Shown: one piece after another, positions 15,029 through 57,473 of the stretch
Layout: each line of letters opens with the position of its first letter
How positions within the stretch are numbered: position 1 is the first letter of the stretch
NCBI RefSeq assembly: GCF_000172155.1
Contig: NZ_ABIZ01000001.1
Coordinates: forward strand, 2,327,105-2,391,104
Length of the DNA stretch: 64,000 nucleotides
From: Verrucomicrobium spinosum DSM 4136 = JCM 18804
GTDB taxonomy: Bacteria > Verrucomicrobiota > Verrucomicrobiia > Verrucomicrobiales > Verrucomicrobiaceae
Reading direction: 5' to 3'
Notes under the pieces: model-generated
What the model was told of the DNA's origin: nothing
Databases searched by the model: none
What the model saw: the letters and a program-made list of their open reading frames with translations, nothing else
Translations under genes and position numbers: made by a program

Positions 15029-15068
15029 GACAGGATTGACAAGATTTCTGAAGGATTAACAAAAGGGG
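15029..15068 (+). repeat. 9-bp-unit repeat (ACAGGATTR type), solo copy
   Basis: Begins 25 bases after the SDR stop codon with GACAGGATTGACAAGATTT, then a spacer and GGATTAACAAAAGGGG. The same pattern occurs at 57433-57473 and, as A-rich variants, on both sides of the GxxExxY gene at 30926-31377. Confidence 0.6.
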
Positions 15069-28508: not shown

Positions 28509-30908
28509 TTACCGGATGGTAGCGGGGAGCGTGCCAACCAGCGTTTTCAGCACACGGGCGTGCGCTTCATCCACTTCTTTCGCCGCCAACGTGCGGTCGG
28601 ACGCACGATACGTCAAGCACCACGCCACGGACTTTTTGTCACTGGCGAGCTTTTGTCCCGTGGTGTCTGTGAACACGTCGAAGAGCGAGGCTCCAGCGAA
28701 CAAGGGCTCCTTGAGCGTGCTGAAAAATGCGGCCACTTTGGCGGTCGCCAGATCGGCAGGCACCTCGAGCGCGACGTCGCGTGTTATGCTGGGGAAGCGG
28801 GGCAGATCACTGAACTTGGCCACGCCTTGGGCACCTTGTTGGAGGGCGCTGATGGCGAGCTCTGCGACGAAGACGGGGCTGCGGGCATCCAGCTCGCGAG
28901 CGCGGGAGGGATGGAGCTGGGCCACCCAGCCGAGCGTCTTGCTGCCGCGTTTCACCTCGGCGCTCAGGAGCCAGCCGGGGAGGGGCTTGGGCACCAACTC
29001 CAGGCCCAGGCCAGCCAGACCGGGCAGCGCTTCCAGAAGGCCGCGGAGGTCTGTGAATTCCAGCGCGGGGCTTTCTTTGGTGTGCCAACTGGGCGGCAGA
29101 GAAGGGCCGCTCAGGAGCAGGGCGAGGCGTTCTTCCTCACGAGTGCTGCCATTGGGATTTTTCAAGAAGACGCGACCGATCTCGAAGAAGCGCAGGCGCT
29201 GAAGGCTCTGCCGGATGTTGAGGGCGGCGGTGGCGATCAGTCCGGGGACAAGGCTGGGGCGCAGGGTGGTGTGATCTTCGCTGAGGGGATTCTTCACTCC
29301 CACGGCTTTGTCCGGCGTCAGGGCAGGCCCGAGGACGTCGGTGAGCTGGGAGCCGGAGATGAGGCGCAGGGTCTGGGCCTCAAAGACGTCCCGGTTCACC
29401 AAGGCCTGGCGCAGGGTCATGGTGAAGTCATAGGTACGGTCGGGGGCGAGGCTCGGGGAGAAGGCGGCGGCGGTGCGGCTGGGCACACGGTCCAGACCGA
29501 TCACGCGAGCGACTTCCTCGACCAAGTCCACGGAGCGCTGGAGATCCCCACGGTAGGAGGGGATGTGCCAGAGGGAGGTGGTATCCGTCTCACTCTTCTT
29601 CGCCAGGCCCAGACCGGTGAGCACGCCGTGCATCTCTTCACGGCTCAGGTCGGGGATGCCGATGAGATTGCGGGCGCGGGTTTCGTCAAAGGTGACGTCC
29701 TGGGTGAGCTGGGGGGCGGTGCCCGCCACGAGGACCTCGGCCTCAGCCGTGCCGCCGGCAATGTCGAGGATGAGTTTCACTGCCAGGTCTGATCCAGCCA
29801 GGGGACCCTGCGGGTCCACGCCACGCTCAAAGCGGTAGCTGGAGTCAGAACTGATGCCCAGACGCCGGGCGGTGCGTCGAATGAAGCTGGGGGTGAAGTA
29901 GGCTGACTCCAGCAGGAGATCGGTGGTTGTCTCCGTGACGCTGGAGGCTTCGCCACCCATGACTCCGGCGATGGCCACCGGGGCACTCGTATCTGCGATG
30001 ACGAGGTCGTCGGTGGTGAGCTCATAGGTGGCCGCATCGAGAGCCACGATCTTCTCACCCTCCATCGCCTGGCGGACGATGATCCCGCCGTTCAGCTTGT
30101 CGAGATCGAACGCGTGCAGCGGCTGGCCCACCTCGAGCAGGACGAAGTTCGTGATGTCCACCACGTTGTTGATGGGGCGCAGACCTACGCTCTGAAGACG
30201 GCGCTGGAGCCACTCGGGGCTCGGGCCCACCTTCACGCCCTTGATGATGCGGGCGCTGTAGAGAGGGCAGCGCTCGGTCGTGTCCAGACGCACCTGATCG
30301 GGTGTCGCCTCCTTCACTGTTGCCTGCGGGACGGGGGGCTTGGGTTCGAGACCTTTCTTGGTCAAGGCGGCCAGTTCGCGGGCCAGACCAGTGTGGCTCA
30401 GCAGATCAGGGCGGTTGGGGGTGATTTCCAGATCGAACACCACATCTGGCGGCACCACTTCCGTGAAGGGCGTGCCCACCTTCAAAGCAGGATCCAGGAT
30501 CATGAGGCCGGCGTGGTCATCGCCGATGCCAAGCTCGCGACCGCTGCACATCATGCCATTGGAGACCACATCGCGGAGCTTGCCCGCCTTGATCTCCAGT
30601 CCGCCGGGGAGAATGGCTCCCGGCAGTGCCAGCGGGACCTTGTCGCCCACCTTGTAGTTCTTCGCCCCGCAGACAATCTGGCGCGGCGTGCCGCTGCCGT
30701 CATCCACCTGGCAGACACTCAGGCGGTCCGCATTGGGATGCTGGAGGGACTCAAGGACCTGCGCGACCACGATCTTGTCGGAGTCAACACCCCGAACCTC
30801 AATGTCCTCCACCTCAATGCCCGCAAACGTGAGGAGGTCACGCATGCTGTCCACGGTGTTGCCGGAGAGGTCGAGGTGCGTTTTAAGCCAGGAGAGGGAG
30901 ACTTTCAT
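28509..30908 (-). CDS. pheT: Phenylalanine-tRNA ligase beta subunit
   Basis: 799 residues; with PheS forms the (alpha-beta)2 enzyme that charges tRNA-Phe. Domain order is as expected: N-terminal tRNA-binding (EMAP/OB-like) domain around 40-150 (KIVVAQVLESLQHPNADRLS), B3/B4 editing domain (PLYSARIIKGVKVGPSP), B5, the core domain (about 470-680), and a C-terminal ferredoxin-fold anticodon-binding domain (FPSITRDVALEVPAD). It follows pheS, with an intervening GxxExxY cassette instead of direct contact. No strong Shine-Dalgarno precedes the ATG. Confidence 0.97.
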   Translation of the reverse strand: MKVSLSWLKTHLDLSGNTVDSMRDLLTFAGIEVEDIEVRGVDSDKIVVAQVLESLQHPNADRLSVCQVDDGSGTPRQIVCGAKNYKVGDKVPLALPGAILPGGLEIKAGKLRDVVSNGMMCSGRELGIGDDHAGLMILDPALKVGTPFTEVVPPDVVFDLEITPNRPDLLSHTGLARELAALTKKGLEPKPPVPQATVKEATPDQVRLDTTERCPLYSARIIKGVKVGPSPEWLQRRLQSVGLRPINNVVDITNFVLLEVGQPLHAFDLDKLNGGIIVRQAMEGEKIVALDAATYELTTDDLVIADTSAPVAIAGVMGGEASSVTETTTDLLLESAYFTPSFIRRTARRLGISSDSSYRFERGVDPQGPLAGSDLAVKLILDIAGGTAEAEVLVAGTAPQLTQDVTFDETRARNLIGIPDLSREEMHGVLTGLGLAKKSETDTTSLWHIPSYRGDLQRSVDLVEEVARVIGLDRVPSRTAAAFSPSLAPDRTYDFTMTLRQALVNRDVFEAQTLRLISGSQLTDVLGPALTPDKAVGVKNPLSEDHTTLRPSLVPGLIATAALNIRQSLQRLRFFEIGRVFLKNPNGSTREEERLALLLSGPSLPPSWHTKESPALEFTDLRGLLEALPGLAGLGLELVPKPLPGWLLSAEVKRGSKTLGWVAQLHPSRARELDARSPVFVAELAISALQQGAQGVAKFSDLPRFPSITRDVALEVPADLATAKVAAFFSTLKEPLFAGASLFDVFTDTTGQKLASDKKSVAWCLTYRASDRTLAAKEVDEAHARVLKTLVGTLPATIR

Positions 30909-30925
30909 AGAAGAAAAAGGGTTTG

Positions 30926-30954
30926 GACAGAATTAACAGAATTTACAAAATTAG
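30926..30954 (+). repeat. Left inverted-repeat arm of the GxxExxY cassette
   Basis: Three 9-bp units (ACAGAATTA, ACAGAATTT, ACAAAATTA) after an initial G. It lies between the pheT start codon (30908) and the GxxExxY stop codon (30966). Confidence 0.75.
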
Positions 30955-30965
30955 ATTTCTTGAGA

Positions 30966-31346
30966 TCAGGCTCTGGGGTTGATGCGGGCCTTCTTCTTAA
31001 ACTCGAGCGAACGGGAGCCGAAGTTCAGCAGCAATCCATCGTCAATGCCGGTGGCTGAGAGGTAGTTCACGACTTGGACTTCGTGGGCAGCACTCAACTT
31101 CTCGATGGCTTTTAGCTCGATGATGAGTTTGCCCTCGACAAAGACGTCCGCGAAGTAGCTGCCGACTTCGATGCCGCGGTAGCGGACCTTGATGGGCTCT
31201 TCGGTCACGTACTTGATCCCGGCTTCTTTGAGCTCCACGCAAAGGGCATTGCGATAGATAATCTCCAAGAACCCAGGGCCGAGCGTGCGGTGTACCCGCA
31301 TGGCGCATCCAATCACCTCTCCGGCAAGATCGTAGTCCCGACTCAT
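30966..31346 (-). CDS. GxxExxY protein (PD-(D/E)XK nuclease superfamily)
   Basis: 126 residues. The defining motif is GFLEIIY near residue 25, and VFVEGKLIIELKA supplies the E-x-K of a PD-(D/E)XK core with the Asp just before it (FADVF). QVVNYLSATG is typical of the C-terminal helix. The family (TIGR04256/PDDEXK_3-like) has no proven biochemical role; a nuclease activity is inferred from the fold. It sits between pheS and pheT, same strand. The start codon has no clear ribosome binding site: the bases upstream are the inverted-repeat arm. Confidence 0.9.
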   Translation of the reverse strand: MSRDYDLAGEVIGCAMRVHRTLGPGFLEIIYRNALCVELKEAGIKYVTEEPIKVRYRGIEVGSYFADVFVEGKLIIELKAIEKLSAAHEVQVVNYLSATGIDDGLLLNFGSRSLEFKKKARINPRA

Positions 31347-31348
31347 AC

Positions 31349-31377
31349 CTAATTCCGTTAATTCTGTTAATTCTGTC
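31349..31377 (-). repeat. Right inverted-repeat arm of the GxxExxY cassette
   Basis: Reads on the minus strand as G then ACAGAATTA, ACAGAATTA, ACGGAATTA. It ends 2 bases before the GxxExxY start codon and begins 14 bases after the pheS stop codon. Confidence 0.75.
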
Positions 31378-31391
31378 TGAATGAATTCGAA

Positions 31392-32408
31392 TTAGAATTG
31401 GGACAAGAACCGGACGTCGTTCTCAATGAGATGGCGGATGTCGGTGATGCCGTGCAGGATCATCGCGAGGCGGTCGAGGCCCATGCCGAAGGCGAAGCCG
31501 GTGACTTCCTCGGGATTGAAGAGGTTGTCACCGCGCATCTGGGACACCGCCTGGAAGACGGCGGGGTCCACCATGCCGCAGCCTGCGATCTCGATCCAAC
31601 GGGCCTCCTGGCCTTTCACCTCGAGCTTGATGTCGATCTCAAAGCTGGGCTCGGTGAAAGGGAAGAAGTGAGGGCGGAAACGGACCTGGGTCTGGGGGCC
31701 AAAGATCTCCTGGAAGAAGACTTCCAGGGTGCCTTTGAGGTCGGCGAGGCTGACATTCTTGTCCACGTACAGGCCTTCGAGCTGATTGAAGACGCTGAGG
31801 TGGGTGGCATCGATCTCATCGCGGCGGTAGGCGGCACCGGGAGCGATGATGCGCACGGGGAGGGCCTTCACGGACTCCATGGTGCGGATCTGCACGGAGG
31901 AGGTGTGCGTGCGCAGCAGACGGCCGTCCGGAAGATAGAAGGTGTCCTTCTCATTGCGGGCCGGGTGGTCGGCCGGCGTGTTCAGAGCGTCGAAGCAGTG
32001 CCACTCCGTTTCAATCTCCGGGCCGTCTGCGACGGCGAAGCCCATGCGGCGGAGGGTCTGGATGGCGCGGTCACGAATGCGGGACAGCGGGTGGAGCGTG
32101 GCGCTGGGTGAGGGGCGGCCAGGAAGCGTGATATCGATCCCCTGAACGGAAGCCGCGTCTTTTTCGGCCTGAAGGGAGAGGAGTTTTTGCTCGATGCCAG
32201 CCGTCAGGGCGGTGCGGACTTCGTTGAGTTTGGCACCGACGGCGGCTTTCTGGTCGGGAGGGACGTCCCGCATCTGGGAGGCGACTGCGGTGAGGCGGCC
32301 TTTTTTGCCCAGGAAGTTCACTCGCAGGGCTTCGAGAGCGGTTTCATCGCCCACGGAGGCCAGCAGGGTGAGACCTTCGAGCTGGATGGTGTCGAGTTCT
32401 GAGAGCAT
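31392..32408 (-). CDS. pheS: Phenylalanine-tRNA ligase alpha subunit
   Basis: 338 residues, normal length. N-terminal coiled coil (EALRVNFLGKKGRLT), then the class II catalytic core: motif 2 region RIIAPGAAYRRDEIDATH, FNQLEGLYVD, RFRPHFFPFTEPSFE, and motif 3 GFAFGMGLDRLAMI. It catalyses phenylalanine activation and transfer together with PheT. A terminator lies 48 bases upstream, between it and rplT. Confidence 0.97.
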   Translation of the reverse strand: MLSELDTIQLEGLTLLASVGDETALEALRVNFLGKKGRLTAVASQMRDVPPDQKAAVGAKLNEVRTALTAGIEQKLLSLQAEKDAASVQGIDITLPGRPSPSATLHPLSRIRDRAIQTLRRMGFAVADGPEIETEWHCFDALNTPADHPARNEKDTFYLPDGRLLRTHTSSVQIRTMESVKALPVRIIAPGAAYRRDEIDATHLSVFNQLEGLYVDKNVSLADLKGTLEVFFQEIFGPQTQVRFRPHFFPFTEPSFEIDIKLEVKGQEARWIEIAGCGMVDPAVFQAVSQMRGDNLFNPEEVTGFAFGMGLDRLAMILHGITDIRHLIENDVRFLSQF

Positions 32409-45298: not shown

Positions 45299-45560
45299 TG
45301 CGCGGGTCCCCTCCACCTCGTCTGGGAGGACGTGATAGAGCCACCTGCGACACCATCGACACCCTTTTTGGACTTTTTGCCAAAATCGCATTTGTTGCGA
45401 TTTATTGTGTATGCTTCTGGCGGTGAGCAAGATGTGATGGAAAAAGTGCGCGTGTTCGATGGATTGAGTTTATCATCAGACTGGCCCGTGGGTCCGGTAT
45501 GCCGAAGGCCTTGCAGAAGGTAGCCAGGGAAGTAATCGCAGCGATACCCTGGAAAGCCGC
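45299..45560 (+). repeat. ~265-bp duplication, copy 1
   Basis: Nearly identical to 45756-46030: only a handful of single-base differences over the first ~220 bases, then a short gap and a common end at AAAGCCGC. The whole interval 44938-46257 has no gene that looks real in codon use or family; frames present are short and inconsistent between the two copies. Confidence 0.8.
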
Positions 45561-45755
45561 CAGTCATTCGCTGGCGTGGGCATGATCCTTTGCTTAACTG
45601 TTGTCGTGTTTCTTGGTGAAGCACGGTCAGAAAACGGTGCCGAGCCACCGTACTCCAAGACGCTTCGCGAGGATTGGGAGTGCCGGGCGGGGCTGGGCCG
45701 AGGGTGGTTTGGTTCTACAACCCAGAATGGGAAGAGGCCAGGGGGGTGGAGAAGG

Positions 45756-46030
45756 TGCGCGGGTCCCCTCCACCTCGTCTGGGAGGACGTGATAGAGCCA
45801 CCTGCGACACCATCGACACCCTTTTTGGACTTTTTGCCAAAATCGCATTTGTTGCGATTTATTGTGTATACTTCTGGCGGTGAGCAAGATGTGATGGAAA
45901 AGTGCGCGTATTCGATGGATTGAGTTTATCATCAGACTGGCCCGTGGGCCCGGTATGCCGAAGGCCTTGCAGAAGGCATTGTAGAAGGTGAACGCCATGA
46001 TGAGCGCAGCGATACCCTTGGAAAGCCGCT
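45756..46030 (+). repeat. ~265-bp duplication, copy 2
   Basis: Second copy of 45299-45560, 457 bases further on, with about 13 extra bases near the end. Contains the same 40-base block that recurs inverted at 46200-46239. Confidence 0.8.
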
Positions 46031-46199
46031 CCCTCTTTGGCAACCGTGGAGGGTGCTTGATCGTCTTTCAGTCGGTGGCATGGGTGCCCTCCTCCGGCAC
46101 CCTGTAGGCGGACCAAACATCGTTTGTAAGTGTTTCGCAAAATTCTGGAGTATGTCGCTCACGCTCAGAGAGATGTGCCAAAAACACATAACTTTTCGT

Positions 46200-46239
46200 T
46201 TTTGGCAAAAAGTCCAAAAAGGGTGTCGATGGTGTCGCA
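46200..46239 (-). repeat. Inverted third copy of a 40-base block
   Basis: Exact complement of 45346-45385 and 45803-45842, the block beginning TGCGACACCATCGACACCC. Flanking bases differ. The three copies bound a ~900-base region next to an IS630-like remnant. Confidence 0.8.
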
Positions 46240-46257
46240 CCTAGGCTCTCTCGAGCC

Positions 46258-57432: not shown

Positions 57433-57473
57433 GACAGGATTAACAAGATTTTTAGAAGATTAACAAGATGGGG
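57433..57473 (+). repeat. 9-bp-unit repeat (ACAGGATTA type), solo copy
   Basis: GACAGGATTAACAAGATTT, spacer, GATTAACAAGATGGGG, 17 bases after the DUF1501 stop codon; same type as 15029-15068. The rest of the gap 57474-57912 has no gene. Confidence 0.6.

Follow-up and report, generated by a model that had tools for sequence, protein, structure and literature searches.

Free-standing and intron homing endonucleases are small nuclease genes whose gain is site-specific and is accompanied by identity that spills into the flanks. In REPIN/REP-RAYT systems, RAYT is a tyrosine transposase, and the STRR repeats of cyanobacteria are heptamer repeats. We know of no settled function for GxxExxY genes or for the S23p-family genes found in the intervening sequences (IVS) of rRNA. 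According to the excerpt of PMC4990558 used here, the IVS of Coxiella burnetii measures 428 nt, has inverted ends that form a 28-bp stem, carries GACAGAT heptamers before its S23p ORF and is processed by RNase III; a mobile origin was proposed for it. The excerpt of PMC4679880 raises a TAACTGA-binding protein as the mobile element. GxxExxY genes are mentioned beside a reverse transcriptase (PMC8934634), in an algal virus gene list (PMC12085832) and as a family (PF13366/GxxExxY) expanded in Arctic algae (PMC9756366), and the excerpts of these three papers make no mention of inverted arms. The open-access PMC literature, with subscription papers and preprints outside it, yielded no account of arms around GxxExxY genes.

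We analyzed a 64-kb stretch of the Verrucomicrobium spinosum genome (the stretch is called the window and the genome G000), in which a cassette lies between pheS and pheT (Table 1). As the earlier note had described, a 126-aa GxxExxY gene is located inside inverted arms of 29 nt each, of which 26/29 positions (90%) are complementary, and the coordinates reproduce the gaps of 2 bases at the start codon and 11 bases at the stop codon. Each arm, read from the sequence, is a direct array of three head-to-tail 9-bp units, and by the ORF list 17 bp separate the 3'-side arm from the pheT start downstream of it. The 23S rRNA IVS with S23p (TIGR02436) is similar in that a small ORF lies in inverted ends made of tandem short units. 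However, the IVS has 7-bp units, lies in rRNA and encodes S23p, whereas the window cassette has 9-bp units, is intergenic and encodes GxxExxY; it is not inside 23S rRNA, and no S23p four-helix protein is encoded. With homing endonucleases the cassette shares site-specific gain, a small nuclease gene and what looks like identity spilling into the flanks, but no intron or intein was seen, inverted unit arrays bracket a gene of this type, a gene-less cassette site keeps an arm, and the nuclease action of GxxExxY is putative. The cassette has terminal inverted repeats of the kind used to define insertion sequences and MITEs, and no transposase gene lies inside it. The family of elements also resembles REPIN/REP-RAYT systems and MITEs in having paired inverted repeats of about 100 bp in tens of copies, although the cassette arms are head-to-tail arrays and not imperfect palindromes, and the gene inside encodes a PD-(D/E)XK protein and not a RAYT. 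The TAACTGA repeats of Beggiatoaceae and the heptamer repeats of cyanobacteria are likewise intergenic and tandem, many of them upstream of ORFs; unlike the cassette arms, the TAACTGA repeats are not paired around a gene, as far as the excerpt of PMC4679880 goes.

Table 1. Features of the pheS-pheT cassette and solo arms in the window.
Feature	Position	Strand	Basis
GxxExxY gene, 126 aa, PD-(D/E)XK nuclease family	30966..31346	-	profiles, AlphaFold2, fold matches
5'-side arm of gene, three tandem 9-bp units (AATTCTGTT type)	31349..31377	.	inverted-repeat search
3'-side arm of gene, three tandem 9-bp units, inverted	30926..30954	.	inverted-repeat search
Whole cassette, 452 bp	30926..31377	-	inverted-repeat search, RNA folding
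pheS, upstream neighbour	31392..32408	-	ORF list; C-terminal query
pheT, downstream neighbour	28509..30908	-	ORF list
Solo arm, sister type (GACAGGATTGACAAGATT..AAGGATTAACAAAAG)	15029..15065	.	read from sequence
Solo arm, sister type (GACAGGATTAACAAGATT..AGAAGATTAACAAGATG)	57433..57470	.	read from sequence

The arm pair is not a product of chance. With up to three mismatches, the arm 17-mer AATTCTGTTAATTCTGT matched the window 5 times against 0.10 expected. Comparison of the window with itself gave three inverted pairs with a score of at least 36 and no more than 1.3 kb apart; one was the cassette, and the other two were parts of one unrelated duplication. Pairs of the same grade numbered 0, 1 and 0 in three shuffled windows. 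An RNA fold of the cassette and its margins (30910-31392) consisted of a single long stem that the arms close (z -4.98), and Rfam gave no match anywhere in the window. In a test with fixed windows at pheS-pheT, a cassette's two flanks were closer to one another than to those of other cassettes in 272 out of 306 cases, indicating that the two arms change together; a value of 276/306, obtained by excising self-aligned arms, was set aside in favour of this one because that method favours the result. The stem and the flank comparisons speak for arms that act as RNA, their transcript being processed as is reported for the rRNA IVS and RNase III, or tuning the next gene, with spread as a side effect; the C. 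burnetii IVS with its inverted ends of 28 bp, tandem heptamers and RNase III processing (excerpt of PMC4990558) fits as well. We consider this explanation improbable; it leaves unexplained both the unequal divergence of cassettes and flanks and the arm words that track the protein, which are described below. A general terminator was rejected as the sole explanation because the window holds no other such pair. By eye, some hairpins at the aligned element sites seemed to lie between convergent genes.

The window protein scored 139 bits against the TIGR04256 profile (cut-off 35) and 134.4 bits against PF13366 (cut-off 22). Its AlphaFold2 model had a mean pLDDT of 91.6, and the best Foldseek match was 4ic1 (SSO0001; E 2.2e-4), with further matches to lambda exonuclease (E 1.2e-3) and MGME1 (E 1.6e-3), all at a TM by query of about 0.5-0.6. 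A second structural comparison gave Z 9.9 and rmsd 4.9 over 105 aligned residues for 4ic1, and Z 7.1 and rmsd 3.2 over 85 for Hjc (1gef); most Z values were middling, and a Z below 8 is weak by itself. The PDB sequence search returned a single match, at E 0.15, which was taken as chance. Judged by the model, the protein has a PD-(D/E)XK nuclease fold. Residues G25, E28, Y31, D67, E77 and K79 were invariant in 40 sequences; in a more diverse set of 17, E77 was not invariant and K79 was nearly so. We take the D..ExK residues to be catalytic. For the 11 of 14 GxxExxY pairs whose dS was finite (close to saturated in some), dN/dS was 0.02-0.15, pointing to strong purifying selection that keeps the protein working.

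We surveyed 59 genomes of the family, of which 56 had a GxxExxY gene. Inverted arms (score of at least 29) were present at 77 of the 93 loci fetched, which came from the better-scoring part of the matches, and their units were tandem and mostly 8-10 bp long. The 93 genes were spread over at most 42 neighbourhoods, a number that short contigs may have inflated; by neighbourhood, arms were found on every fetched gene in 35/42 and on at least one gene in 37/42. In the shuffle control, which belongs to the GTDB survey described below, 99% of 1600 shuffles scored 27 or less and the maximum was 32. Random window spans (4902, at slightly other settings) scored no more than 25 in 99% and 31 in 99.9% of cases, with a maximum of 76, and one set of control spans for the family loci was small (n=46). 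Upstream and downstream flanks taken from different loci (1056 pairs) scored higher (median 19, 95% 41, 99% 67) because arm words recur. Beyond the family, arms with a score of at least 29 occurred at 67 of the best 80 GTDB loci out of at least 568 confirmed. These 80 spanned more than 10 phyla by record title, and two of them (L186 and L209) repeated family loci; other arm types are under-sampled there, the query having come from the window's own clade. In the Prevotella-group loci L227, L213 and L215, the arms were long irregular arrays of GACATAATAACATA or GACAGGAGTA with far more than three units. No arms were found at 16 of the 93 family genes, and 7 of these 16 formed one clade. This clade (L083, L142, L145, L146, L147, L150 and L169) occupied one neighbourhood with an adjacent second GxxExxY domain, which in L169 is only a fragment; it has possibly been tamed for a host task.

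The arm words followed the protein. A pattern script, drawn up once the arms had been viewed, assigned the unit types; 11 types, together with 2 untyped arms and 16 armless genes, gave 13 labels. On a protein tree of 112 columns, in which 32 of 88 inner branches were open, the labelled rows required 16 changes, the least possible for 11 types being 10. All 13 labels required 27 changes, against a mean of 66.1 after shuffling, and 0/200 shuffles were as low; some words were nevertheless scattered on the tree, CACGAAG with 5 changes. For pairs from different neighbourhoods, the share with common arms (score of at least 27) rose with protein identity: 1% at 25-45%, 4% at 45-55%, 50% at 55-70% (107 pairs) and 77% at 70% and above (22 pairs). 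Short contigs may hide orthology in some of the close pairs. The rank correlation between sharing and protein identity was 0.145, and 0/500 permutations were as high. By these comparisons, each protein lineage tends to one arm word, also across neighbourhoods. The same correspondence would arise from linked inheritance alone.

In the whole G000 genome, an arm 19-mer gave 49+54 matches with up to three mismatches, against 0+1 for its reversed control. The earlier note had proposed a search for further arms and armed genes, and this search found, besides the many arms, 4 GxxExxY genes, all armed, with one each of the unit types AATTCTGTT (window), CACAGAG, CACTAAT and CACGAAG. We catalogued 30 arm groups, a list that excludes the window cassette and some solo arms: 19 were inverted pairs 83-117 bp long, one consisted of two 101-bp pairs, and the remainder were groups of 58, 214, 458 and 998 bp or single arms. 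The GxxExxY gene was absent from the sequences viewed among the catalogued AATT-type groups, whose interiors were read unsystematically. The single 9-bp units previously placed at 15029 and 57433 turned out instead to belong to solo arms that are longer, about 37 bp, and of a sister type (GACAGGATT..ACAAGATT..). With up to two mismatches, GACAGGATTNACAAGATT matched G000 26+30 times (control 0+0), a count that can include some AATT-type arms, and G000 carries both arm types, AATT and GGATT. An apparent lack of GGATT arms in G000 was an artefact of an exact pattern, which had given 0 matches. AATT-type elements were nested inside CACAGAG-type arms at L005, L013, L014, L019, L025, L031, L033, L041, L043 and L046; because these nested copies are many, they suggest that the composite was amplified via its outer arms. 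The long gene-less AATT elements L035:267-1264 and L038:1980-2437 hold passenger palindromes (CCGTCCCGCATGCGGGAC and the like).

AATT arms were present in 6 of the 59 family genomes. The relatives G001 and G012 had 43 and 53 AATT-type matches and three GxxExxY genes each, none of AATT type. G014 had 49 GGATT-type matches and a gene-free pheS-pheT spacer of 45 bp, and 2 of its 3 GxxExxY genes were in the fetched set; the GGATT arms examined there were solo. Arms thus abound in G001 and G012 without an AATT-type gene and in G014 without the pheS-pheT gene, and copy number was rejected as proof of a matched enzyme. Arms outlive genes. In G014, 24 of 28 GGATT matches (16 of 19 loci) faced a start codon within 90 nt, against 559/2000 random places, which is a further point in favour of arms acting at the RNA level. 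An AATCCGC heptamer run follows a solo GGATT arm at L346:1233-1290.

These arm copies without a matching gene, the excess of gene-less pairs over gene cassettes among the AATT-type elements of G000, and the gene-less elements of 214, 458 and 998 bp would also be expected if the arms were ends for another enzyme acting in trans, such as host recombination or an unseen transposase, the enclosed genes being cargo or accessory. We regard such an enzyme as rather unlikely. One shared enzyme would have no need of arm words that track protein lineage, 11 arm words in one bacterial family would seem to need as many enzymes, and no other gene was seen to recur between arms in the interiors viewed.

With the pheS C-terminal end (99 aa) as query, matches were obtained in 40/40 family genomes, and 30 pheS-pheT loci were fetched from these 40. 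A GxxExxY gene was present in 14 of the 30; a paired GCAGAGG-type hairpin occupied 2, a solo CACTAAT arm 1 and a single GCAGAGG-type arm 1, 9 had no arm, and in 3 no pheT adjoined pheS. All 18 fetched genes of the window clade (17 CAGRATT, 1 CAGGAGG) lay at pheS-pheT, as did 0 of the other 75 fetched genes, and several other clades also kept one neighbourhood. The apparent residence of the window clade at pheS-pheT fits homing to the site better than free transposition. The claim of the earlier note that the gene and its arms move as a unit therefore holds in part: lineage-matched arms, site replacement and copying support the unit, free transposition fits less well than homing, and the enzyme is a candidate.

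Constant residence and strong purifying selection could be taken to mean that the gene is an ordinary host gene, immobile, inherited vertically and evolving fast, and that its arms evolve in concert. The same cassette in all relatives and the lack of a second copy had been named beforehand as the pattern pointing to such inheritance; the gene was found at 14/30 loci, in scattered fashion, and in 4 copies in the genome. The spread of 93 genes over as many as 42 neighbourhoods and the cassette dS values between G000 and G012 (0.013 and 0.073 at two sites, yet 2.6 at a third) also stand against this account, which was already disfavoured and which we hold to be very improbable.

Divergence between cassettes and flanks was unequal among the three congeneric genomes. 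At pheS-pheT, dS of the GxxExxY gene was 1.4-2.6 in three congeneric pairs (saturated and rough), whereas that of pheS was 0.35-0.45. The first 50 codons of pheT were unusually alike (dS 0.06-0.09), which may reflect copying or ordinary constraint near the start. The distance from the pheS stop to the left arm is about 17 bp greater in G000 than in G001. Among the 24 same-site pairs, which are all those in the fetched set and are not independent, the cassette gene was clearly more divergent than its flanks in 18; in the other 6 its identity exceeded that of either flank in 3 pairs, was intermediate in 2 and was lower than both in 1. Identity of the cassette gene was 0.66-0.79 in the 18 pairs and 0.88-0.997 in the 6, and that of the flanks was 0.86-0.97.

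Two cassettes, in contrast, were far more alike than their flanks. The L003/L140 cassette had 2/564 differences against 91/1400 in the outer flanks (p 1.2e-11), and 6/764 when 100 bp on either side were added (p 1.0e-11); the 200 flanking bases closest to it had 4 mismatches, against 6.5% further outward. For L004/L153 the values were 12/504 against 148/1501 (p 3.7e-9) and, with 50 bp on either side, 16/604 against 148/1501 (p 1.5e-9), with 4 mismatches in 100 flanking bases against 9.9% outward. Tract margins were picked after the profile had been viewed, and the cassette-only tests are independent of them. The two tracts of excess identity look like recent cassette copying, with a clear 100-bp spill in L003/L140, as would be seen in co-conversion of the flanks.

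Turnover of cassettes was examined at individual sites. In G000 and G012, the site of the G001 cassette L056 had neither the gene nor the left arm, and it kept a single matching right arm shortly before the next start codon; no exact junction was recovered that would show the target destroyed by insertion, as in homing elements. Presence and absence at a fixed site, as in homing elements, were thus found at this site as well as at pheS-pheT. Because G012 is slightly outside by pheS identity (0.928 between G000 and G001, and 0.908 for either against G012), gain beside a pre-existing arm would be the shorter account of L056, and loss that left an arm would be the alternative. Of the other two gene cassettes traced, L001 corresponded to another hairpin in relatives, and L004 was kept in G012 and corresponded in G001 to a solo arm beside other genes. 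Thirteen G000 elements were traced in G001 and G012, and seven of them were aligned and read by eye. At 5 of these 7 sites the relatives had a different heptamer-built hairpin (in both genomes at 3 sites, and in G001, the one genome aligned, at 2); at one of the remaining sites the outer arms alone were shared, and one element was shared with G012. No exact empty site was found among the aligned sites, the best (L056) keeping an arm, and no target duplication was seen by eye at the pheS-pheT loci or the aligned sites, none of which was a clean empty site. Eight plasmid records matched, all with less than 60% identity and with no empty site in the three regions read, and phages gave no match and hence no empty site.

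The same anatomy was found in a second class of genes. Arms were present at 49 of 52 fetched TIGR02436 four-helix-bundle genes (S23p, the rRNA intervening-sequence family), and the highest score among 1040 shuffles was 28. By eye, their units were mostly of 7 bp (AGTGAAA, GTTGATA, CAGTGGG, AATTAGG and others). These arms tracked the protein more weakly (rank correlation 0.22, 0/500 permutations); at 55-70% identity, 15% of the 39 pairs had them in common. Four-helix cassettes diverged from their flanks as GxxExxY cassettes did; no excess cassette identity was seen in L298/L311 and L301/L312, the two four-helix pairs among the four close pairs profiled. To our knowledge, none of the four-helix-bundle genes is a nuclease. 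Since this class has the same anatomy and divergence, either a nuclease is unneeded or a shared third enzyme acts, and the occurrence of one anatomy in two unrelated protein families is again what an enzyme acting in trans would produce. Cassettes of this type may occur genome-wide, with the rRNA IVS as one of their placements, and the Coxiella IVS fits the cassette plan. The rRNA IVS is itself a known kind of element suspected of mobility, and the joint class with private unit words may be more than that.

We see an evenly balanced case for site-specific, homing-like mobile cassettes that are recognized through their arms. The anatomy, the match between lineage and word, the unequal divergence of cassettes and flanks, and the two cassettes far more alike than their flanks are established directly. 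The unit would be a minimal mobile cassette without a transposase gene, consisting of a GxxExxY gene and inverted arrays of its lineage's short unit. Such cassettes would occupy particular intergenic sites, here pheS-pheT, where relatives gain, lose and replace them. The GxxExxY protein would bind its own arm array and cut either that array or a neighbouring site, and repair of the break would draw on a copy that bears the cassette, in the manner of a free-standing homing endonuclease. On this view, solo arms and hairpins that lack the gene would be either targets or products of decay. For the GxxExxY class, nuclease-driven homing is the simplest mechanism, and it is one that we infer. Because the four-helix class works without a known nuclease, serious rivals remain: a third, shared enzyme, or a binding protein that directs repair by the host.

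Tentatively, and with somewhat less than even confidence, we suggest that minimal selfish cassettes form a superfamily that is widespread and undescribed. Each small protein in it (GxxExxY or S23p) would be locked to a private word of 7-10 bp, about three to each mirror-image arm. The protein would read the word and drive the homing of gene and arms to sites that bear it, and many of the tandem-oligomer repeats dispersed in bacterial genomes, rRNA intervening sequences included, would be the tracks of this process. Both kinds of gene, GxxExxY and S23p, turn up repeatedly across the genomes searched and have no settled function that we know of; tandem repeats of 7-10 bp are likewise unexplained, and the cassettes tie the genes and the repeats together. 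With 11 words in one family, the protein-word pairs lend themselves to testing for a new code of DNA or RNA recognition, and they suggest where rRNA intervening sequences are likely to have come from.

Elsewhere in the window, at 45334-46252, a direct repeat (45334 and 45791) is accompanied by an inverted 56-bp copy at 46197-46252 that is 91% alike.
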